Assembly (NCBI GenBank): GCA_905221605.1
Contig: CAJNDS010002103.1
Coordinates: 310,581-374,580 of the forward strand
From: Symbiodinium natans
Lineage: Eukaryota; Sar; Dinophyceae; Suessiales; Symbiodiniaceae
Reading direction: 5' to 3'
DNA: 64,000 nucleotides
Shown piece after piece: positions 838 to 2,880 of this stretch. The first letter of the stretch is position 1. Each line of letters begins with the position of its first letter. The notes beneath the pieces were generated by a model. The model made no database searches, was not told where the DNA came from, and was given only the letters and a program-made list of their open reading frames with translations. The translations under genes and the position numbers were made by a program.

Positions 838-1582
838 CTAGTATATAAACATTAAAATGCAACCAAGGGCTGTAGTAAACCCAAGCCCCGAAGCCCCGAA
901 GACCTTATACATCCTACAGTCACCAAACCTACCAATTGCTTAAGAACCCCCGCCAAAAAAATGAAAATATGCTTCCCTCACGGGTAAAATTGGGGTTTCG
1001 GGTTTAGGGTTTAGGGTTTAGTTCTTAAGCAAATAGTAGCAAACCAGGGTGCGGCAGTAAGCTGGGCCTGAGGCAGCCGGTCGAGGAGGTGTACCGCCAG
1101 CTGCCAGGGCCCTCCCTTCTCACAGGCGCTGATGGTGGCCTAGGCTGGGGCCCAGAAACACCTCTGAAAGGTCTAGGGTTTAGGGTTTGGGGTTTAGGGT
1201 TTAGGGTAATAAACATTCTCTAGACCCAGGAGTAACCTAGGAAAAAAAAAAAACAGGGTGCCCTTTTTTGCTTTAAGGGGATTATATGGGAACCCCAAAC
1301 CCTGAAAAACAAAAAAGGGCTCCGGGTCCTACTTCTCAAAGAAGGTACTCCCAAATCGCCCAAAACACACCGGGACCTTTTTTGTAAAAACTACAAGGAG
1401 GGGCCCCCTAGTTATAAGTAGACGTATAGGAGCCCTAAATTGGGTTATAAGGAGCCTATCATAGGTTATAAGTCCCTTGATTATAGTTAGTATTATATAC
1501 ATATATGTATATACACATACATGCATATATACATATGTACATCTATATATGACATATATATATATATATACGTATGATAGAC

Positions 1583-1615
<33 letters not shown>

Positions 1616-2880
1616 TTGACGTTGGCACCCTTCTGTATTTACACACTGCTTCGGGAAAACCAAATTAAGGGGAAAGATCAACTTTTCCTTGGTCCGGCCT
1701 AGTGGCATTGTAGACAATGACGTCAGGCGTAAGATGTGATTTGGGCCTTGGTAGCCCAGTAACCATATTATAATAAGGGCACCCTTTGTTTTTGGGTTGG
1801 CTATTTTATAAGGGAACCCATAACCAAAATAAAAAAGGTAAAGGGTACTGTACCACTGGGCTACCACGGGGCATGTCGTTGAAAAGATGCAGAGCCAACT
1901 GCCACTGACCGCCCTTCTCGCAGGAACTGATCGTGGCGCTGTAGCCTTGGTAGCCCAGTAACCTCATCTTAACAAGGGCACCCTTTTTGGGGTTGGTTAC
2001 TCTATAAGGGAACCTACAACTATAAAAAAAAGGGTAAAGGGTACCACTGGGCCACCAAGTAGCTAATTACATTGGGGCGAACCTTGGCCTTGCGCATGCT
2101 GTGGAACAGGCGCCAGGCCAACGGCCACTGTTGGCCCTTCTGACAGGAGCTGATGGCGCTGCTGTAGCTAATAACGTCGGGATCCACCTTCGTGCTGAGC
2201 ATGCGATGAAATAAATGCAGCGCCAGCTGCCACTGCTGGCCCTTCTCACAGGAGCTGATCGCCGCGCTGTAGCTGATGACATCCGGTTCCAGCTTGGCTT
2301 TCTGCATGTCGCTCAACAACAGCACAGCCGGCTTCCACTGCCCGCTCTTTCCGCAGGTGCTAATGGCAGCATTGAACATGATGACATTAGCAGCAAGATC
2401 GGCGTTCAACATCGCGGCAAACAAATGCAGAGCCAGGTGCCAGTGCACTCCCGAATCAAAGGAGCTGATCGTGGCACCGTAGCTGATGGTATTGGGGGTA
2501 ACCCTGGCCTTAGGCATGCCATGAAAGAGATGAAGTGCCATGGGCCACTGCTTGGTCTTGGCGCACGTGCTGATTGCTGTTGTATAGTCGGGCAAGCCAA
2601 GCTTAATCTTGCCGTCCTTAAAGGCGGCAAACATGGCGCCTACTACATCTTCTCGATGTAGCACCCTGAGCTCTTGCAGCACCCGGCGGAGAAGCTTGGG
2701 AGTCTTCCGCCACTCAGGCAGGTGTGGACCTACCAGTTGCTTCACAATCTGGCTATTCGCGGGCCTCTTGAGCTTGTGCAGTCGCACCACGATCTCGCTC
2801 GACCCACTGCTCTTGCCGCGCTGCTGTGCACGCCCTGCTGAACTGAATGCCCGAGCCTTCATGATCAAGGGGGCCATCAT
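838..2880 (-). CDS. Pentatricopeptide repeat (PPR) protein, five exons
   Basis: Organelle RNA-binding type PPR protein, about 371 residues. Exons, in transcript order, are 2880-2064, 1945-1873, 1746-1707, 1139-1045 and 928-838 (stop TAG). The N-terminus (MMAPLIMKARAFSSAGRAQQ) is rich in Ala, Arg and Ser, which fits a mitochondrial or plastid transit peptide. The body is a run of about 35-residue repeats built on ISSCEKGQQWQLALHLF. Exon 1 alone looks truncated, but removing introns 1 (1946-2063, GC-AG), 2 (1747-1872, GC-AG) and 3 (1140-1706, GC-AG) restores two further repeats without a break (VISY/SATISSCEKGG; NDMPKSHLTPDVIVYNATIS). Intron 4 (929-1044) is GT-AG. Introns 1 and 2 are family-D palindromic elements and intron 4 is a family-A element. 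The last exon is less repeat-like, so the C-terminus is the least certain part. The upstream frame has a stop just before the chosen start. The repeat style is known from dinoflagellates; the RNA target is unknown. Confidence 0.92.
929..1044 (-). mobile_element. Introner-like element, family A (PPR intron 4), with telomere units inside
   Basis: Ends read CTACTATTTGCTTAAGAAC and its complement. A GTTTG direct repeat flanks it, giving a GT-AG intron. The middle holds TTTAGGG units. Family-A copies also at 8-163, 4272-4375, 7529-7640 and 43529-43642; half copies at 44440-44520 and 49083-49140. Confidence 0.85.
1747..1872 (-). mobile_element. Introner-like element, family D (PPR intron 2)
   Basis: 126-bp palindrome with a GCCC direct repeat at its borders. 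Splicing GC-AG joins NDM to PKSHLTPDVIVYNA. Without splicing the frame is shifted and stops. Confidence 0.9.
1946..2063 (-). mobile_element. Introner-like element, family D (PPR intron 1)
   Basis: 118-bp palindrome with ends TTGGTGGCCCAG / CTGGGCTACCAAG. The host sequence GCTAC is present on both sides. Taken as a GC-AG intron it starts with the first GCTAC and ends AG just before the second, restoring VISYSATISS. Other family-D copies: 1747-1872, 8107-8222, 19685-19803, 25741-25893, 42891-43002 and 46088-46198. Confidence 0.9.

Follow-up and report, generated by a model that had tools for sequence, protein, structure and literature searches.

Inverted-repeat elements as candidate introner introns in a dinoflagellate-like PPR gene

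A PPR gene on the minus strand of the window (the whole stretch of DNA analysed, 64,000 nucleotides), extending from 2880 to about 838, has its coding sequence interrupted by inverted-repeat elements accompanied by direct repeats. We consider it very likely that these elements are non-autonomous cut-and-paste DNA transposons (MITE-like introners) that inserted into PPR exons and became spliceable introns. Presumably moved by a transposase, such elements would have entered exons of this dinoflagellate gene and duplicated 4 bp of the host sequence. If the duplicated target started with GC or GT on the coding strand, its upstream copy could then act as 5′ splice site, and the element's own final AG would provide the 3′ splice site, followed by the G of the second copy. 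An AG can be offered whichever way the element inserts, because its inverted-repeat ends, followed inwards on each strand, start with CT. Splicing out the element together with one duplicate would regain the former coding sequence.

Elements and duplications in the PPR gene

For the PPR protein, 123 relatives (120 of them listed) were found, and those with names come from Symbiodinium, Durusdinium, Polarella, Prorocentrum, Effrenium and Cladocopium; the top-scoring relative among the matches listed is an ENA protein with 55% identity across 88% of the PPR query. Judging by these relatives, the window is dinoflagellate-like nuclear DNA. Exon 1 is a single open frame covering residues 1–272, and 371 codons are open, without stop or frameshift, once all four proposed introns (Table 1) are removed. 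The PPR_2 score is 136.7 bits for the spliced protein versus 107 bits for the unspliced one.

Table 1. Features of the PPR gene (splice sites putative) and related loci in the window
Feature	Position	Strand	Remarks
Exon 1	2064..2880	-	First ATG at 2880; open frame; PPR domains by Pfam
GCTA, upstream duplicate (4 bp)	2060..2063	-	Putative GC donor site for intron 1
Family D inverted-repeat element (114 bp) forming the body of intron 1	1946..2059	-	Ends CTTGG...CCAAG; AG acceptor within
Exon 2	1873..1945	-	Second GCTA copy (1942-1945) at its start; junctions gap-free in most covering homologues
GCCC, upstream duplicate	1869..1872	-	Putative GC donor site for intron 2
Family D element (122 bp) forming the body of intron 2	1747..1868	-	Ends CGTGG...CCAAG (coding strand)
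Exon 3	1707..1746	-	Second GCCC copy (1743-1746) at its start; junctions gap-free in most covering homologues
GCCA, upstream duplicate	1703..1706	-	Putative GC donor site for intron 3; direct-repeat run of 5 with next base
Intron 3 body, 563 bp	1140..1702	-	Ends CTAGGC...GCCTAG; end arms alike across only about 9-10 bp
D-related copy nested in intron 3	1220..1332	+	nhmmer E 1.5e-13; flanks TTCT/TTCT by automated fit
Exon 4	1045..1139	-	End of PPR homology near exon's 3′ end
GTTTG, upstream duplicate	1040..1044	-	Putative GT donor site for intron 4 (proposed); length 5 bp, alternatively 4 plus one
Family A inverted-repeat element (111 bp), body of proposed intron 4	929..1039	-	Ends CTACT...GGTAG
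Proposed exon 5	838..928	-	29 codons up to TAG; basis is open frame only
Perfect 4-bp duplications outside exons	TTCT 1220, TTAA 19688, AAGA 40361, GACC 39441, CTGA 46088, GTAG 4272, TTTA 7529	+	
Loci of second inverted-repeat family	412-496, 10306, 18265, 19089, 24757, 37312, 37580, 58913		

Introns 1–3 share a common plan, in which a 4-bp target duplication supplies the putative GC donor, the element's final AG supplies the putative acceptor, and the second duplicate follows. On the coding strand, with slashes at the proposed junctions, intron 1 reads ATTA/GCTA+CTTGG...CCAAG/GCTACAGC (118 bp removed), intron 2 ACAT/GCCC+CGTGG...CCAAG/GCCCAAAT (126 bp removed), intron 3 CAAT/GCCA+CTAGG...CCTAG/GCCACCAT (567 bp removed, 1140–1706) and proposed intron 4 CCTG/GTTTG+CTACT...GGTAG/GTTTGGTG (116 bp removed). 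Three of the four elements start with CT on this strand; the intron 2 copy starts with CG. A preliminary description of this DNA had read introns 1, 2 and 4 as inverted-repeat elements flanked by direct repeats. Arms and repeats lie where it placed them, and its donors (GC, GC and GT) and AG acceptors are confirmed on the coding strand. The repeats it named (GCTAC, GCCC and GTTTG) are likewise present, with the refinement that the duplication at intron 1 is best taken as the 4-bp GCTA, to which GCTAC adds one matching base.

The elements have terminal inverted repeats and target duplications, and homology indicates that introns 1 and 2 are each an element from end to end, as is probably the case for intron 3. 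An introner-type creation of introns 1 and 2 is well supported. The long hairpins of introns 1, 2 and 4 place both borders close together (folding z of −4.36, −3.33 and −3.14, respectively, with 0 of 200 shuffles folding as well); as hairpins are expected from any inverted repeat, they are by themselves no evidence of splicing.

The preliminary description made no element claim for intron 3, to which the introner plan probably extends: this intron would consist of an older introner, a later insertion and microsatellites. Alternatively, it may be an ordinary old intron with a GCCAC repeat arisen by chance and a D-related element nested within it. This reading, which is compatible with an introner origin of introns 1 and 2, strikes us as possible but on balance doubtful: the short arms speak for it, as do boundaries picked by eye and a direct repeat of at least 5 in 0.8% of random GY..AG pairs, whereas similar ends and a duplication at a homology-defined junction, like those of the neighbouring introns, speak against it. 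Element and duplication are real at intron 4 as well, and excision as an intron is plausible. Junction 4 is gap-free in 4 of 12 covering homologues; PPR homology stops there and alignments beyond it are poor, so that the argument for this intron is one of anatomy. Hence the earlier proposal that introners created the introns, sound for introns 1 and 2, goes too far for intron 4, where the 29 codons that follow show no homology. It is a real possibility, though one we lean against, that introns 1–3 are introners and that the family A element at 929–1039 lies outside the coding region, in 3′ untranslated or downstream sequence, a reading compatible with our preferred explanation of introns 1–3. 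PPR homology ends before this element, and proposed exon 5 has no convincing homologue match in the protein set compared; on the other side, the element shares the GT...AG anatomy and a duplication.

Evidence bearing on splicing

Homologues cross the rebuilt junctions without gaps in 117 of 120 cases at junction 1, 115 of 119 at junction 2 and 116 of 119 at junction 3, where the denominators are the proteins covering the junction (out of 159 compared, including 39 retrieved with an unrelated query) and the counts are generous because PPR repeats align in several, shifted registers. These data bear out, for junctions 1–3, the earlier statement that PPR codons are restored exactly; it does not carry over to junction 4, given the low count there. 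Such restoration, stressed in the preliminary description, is in any case weak evidence for splicing: clean excision of any insertion plus one duplicate regains the old sequence, so a restored frame shows insertion, not splicing. The gene also contains an uninterrupted PPR repeat that can be aligned gap-free to the rebuilt intron 1 site, and this may be taken as an internal stand-in for the intron 1 empty site; gap-free alignments exist for sites 2 and 3 too, with weaker scores. When homologue proteins were searched for read-through into element peptides, the matches listed were low-complexity or weak only. The GC/GT rule, the 371 open codons and the PPR homology together suggest that the elements are spliced out.

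All four genic duplications start with GC or GT, and AG stands at each element end. GC and GT account for 16.3% of dinucleotides in the spliced coding sequence when proposed exon 5 is counted in, which puts the probability of four out of four at about 7e-4 and that of three out of three, for introns 1–3, at about 4e-3. Among random GY..AG pairs in the window (100,000 draws), direct repeats of at least 4 occur at a frequency of 0.023 and of at least 5 at 0.008; given the former value, four in one gene are not due to chance. Outside exons, seven copies (D, D-like or A) have perfect 4-bp duplications, one of which starts with GC or GT on either strand, namely GTAG at 4272 (read by eye). The one-sided Fisher probability for 4/4 versus 1/7 is about 0.015 (hand arithmetic; small numbers). 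The copy at 1220 was counted as outside exons although it lies within intron 3, and the weak D-like copy at 40361 (AAGA) was counted though absent from the 17 D loci described below; without the latter, the count is 1/6.

One caveat here is that the outside-exon counts are small and were partly chosen by a duplication fit that is rough and automated and rewards matching flanks. Dropped were six D loci with no credible ends in the fit (4639, 10979, 12723 with a nominal CCTG repeat, 26341, 47722 and 54435) and several loci with imperfect duplications (D at 3355, 8109, 24577, 25743 and 42888; A at 43529); the A loci at 4–160, whose left flank is at the window edge, and 44431 were also left out. 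The terminal AG is shared by family members in general and is hence not independent evidence for each copy. Targeting of GC/GT by the elements was considered and rejected, as the perfect duplications outside exons include TTAA, CTGA, AAGA, TTTA, GACC and TTCT. With the reservation that the numbers are small, GC/GT at all four genic duplications, versus one of seven outside, is better evidence for splicing than the frame.

Element families and the orientation of family D

Families D and A are real: end-motif matches number 14 for D (≤2 mismatches; 4.65 expected) and 9 for A (≤3 mismatches; 0.01 expected). A profile search of this window at E<1e-3, with the D profile (nhmmer) built from 7 D copies and palindrome echoes dropped, found several copies of each, with 17 loci for D and 6 for A. 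One gene is recognised in the window; two of the 17 D loci are its introns and one is nested in intron 3. A scan for inverted repeats that excluded TTTAGGG-like arrays returned 32 hits, compared to 6–15 in 20 surrogates, and 6 CT...AG-ended hits, compared to 0–3, although its strict rule missed introns 3 and 4. It replaced a scan for any 14-base inverted repeat, which was swamped by those arrays. The preliminary description's view of the introners as still or recently mobile was over-claimed: identity is about 82–85% between the D copies of introns 1 and 2, and six other D or D-like copies show 71–84% identity to intron 1.

All 17 D loci lie on the plus strand, spread over 53 kb (1220–54494), with a two-sided probability near 1.5e-5 if the loci are treated as independent (hand arithmetic). 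The only two minus-strand D matches at E<1e-3 merely echo the palindromic copies at 1946 and 1747, and two weaker minus-strand matches on other loci (E 0.76 and 0.85) are at a level also reached by surrogates. Five Markov surrogates gave no D profile match better than 0.003, which makes the weakest of the 17 loci (4639, E 5e-4) marginal. An argument for separate insertions is that six D loci with fairly credible ends have perfect duplications that differ from one another. In a self-comparison of the masked window, same- versus opposite-strand links were 30/0 for D and 7/12 for the next family; five other groups of four gave 3/1, 3/0, 1/3, 2/1 and 1/3, and of nine two-locus groups 8 were same-strand (two being PPR repeats) and 1 opposite. 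A same-strand excess outside D is thus present, but in small groups only. Single-copy seeds gave 9/0, 5/0 and 11/0 for D, 3/2 for A, 3/5 and 4/5 for B, 4/2 for E, 4/3 for F, 1/1 for G and 2/1 for H. Families A, B, E and F are of mixed orientation, in contrast to D.

With this shared orientation, the D copies within the gene all face the same way with respect to PPR transcription. We raise tentatively, as a rather unlikely explanation, that family D is strand-locked, with insertion or survival dependent on the direction of transcription or replication across tens of kilobases; for instance, one D orientation alone might splice harmlessly in long gene clusters transcribed one way. A strand-locked family and a local accident look the same within one window. 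A search of mainly subscription-free literature found no paper on introner orientation bias, which is weak evidence of absence.

Several other features of the window were recorded. A second inverted-repeat family, with ends near CTTGGGATGTT, has 8–9 loci of mixed orientation (Table 1). Degenerate TTTAGGG/CCCTAAA arrays are dispersed on both strands (3813–3910, 4177–4250, 6574–7250 and many others). A 640-codon open frame on the plus strand (62081–64000) runs off the window and has 39 relatives, all from ENA and many at 80–92% identity; it is probably the gene of a high-copy mobile element. This frame and the rest of ten other open frames contained no Pfam family above cut-off (zf_Hakai matched weakly, below cut-off). 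A minus-strand frame at 60712–61145 encodes coiled-coil-like sequence, is possibly an exon, and has no Pfam match. PPR homologues gave no further match in the rest of the window, and Rfam (at gathering scores) and tRNA scans of it were empty. Searches of viral_contigs and genome_contigs for relatives of the PPR protein returned 4 and 13 pattern stretches, respectively, and no relative. An 18-base D end had one match in viral_contigs (L001), by eye a chance match in a viral contig, and 20 bases of the other D end had 0 matches in genome_contigs.

Alternatives and known introners

If the locus were a dead PPR copy hit by ordinary MITEs, no splicing would be needed. Related PPR proteins lacking these interruptions do exist (e.g. 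P0002, compared at the protein level), excision restores the frame automatically, and the 3′ end of the gene lacks PPR homology. We nonetheless regard such a copy as improbable in view of 371 codons free of stops and frameshifts and of the sense-direction GC/GT found at every genic duplication, as against one in seven outside exons. Less probable still, to the point of being very hard to credit, is a spread of introns via reverse splicing of RNA into the gene: the single orientation of all D loci above threshold is what RNA-templated sense insertion could give, but a DNA transposase is indicated by the terminal inverted repeats and by the 4-bp duplications, which occur also at targets that lack a GC/GT donor, such as TTAA and CTGA.

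Introner insertion, the preferred reading, has close precedents. Introners of Symbiodinium microadriaticum are described as having 4-bp duplications, inverted repeats, a carried 3′ splice site and a 5′ site derived from the duplication (Gozashti et al. 2022, PMC9860276). As described there, the mechanism is the one proposed for the PPR-gene elements, the comparison being one of anatomy. The mechanism is thus already published for that species (PMC9860276), and what is new here is another gene and the one-way orientation of D. For Polarella, 12,253 recent introner introns are given in a review (Roy et al. 2023, cited in PMC11453091), whose account of Polarella glacialis and other dinoflagellates, with many families and thousands of recent introns, resembles ours at the level of description. 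Related elements have been reported in Amoebophrya and Prorocentrum (PMC7789003, PMC10666404). The Amoebophrya introner elements, as characterised by Farhat et al. (2021, PMC7789003), share inverted repeats of 8–20 nt, direct repeats of 3–5 nt at exon/intron borders and a predicted hairpin; they were defined among non-canonical introns, whereas the four in the PPR gene read GC/GT...AG. Symbiodinium donors are reported to include GC and GA besides GT, with G often following the acceptor AG (PMC4083563), and this norm of GC donors and AG-then-G counts for the introner reading.

The gene offers a base-resolution view, in one place and with several insertions, of how a transposon may become an intron, the host duplication serving as donor and the element end as acceptor. 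The copies outside exons form a natural control and suggest, in small numbers, that the donor rule reflects survival in exons, not insertion preference. If the D orientation holds beyond this window, the spread of introners would be tied to the direction in which the DNA is transcribed or replicated.
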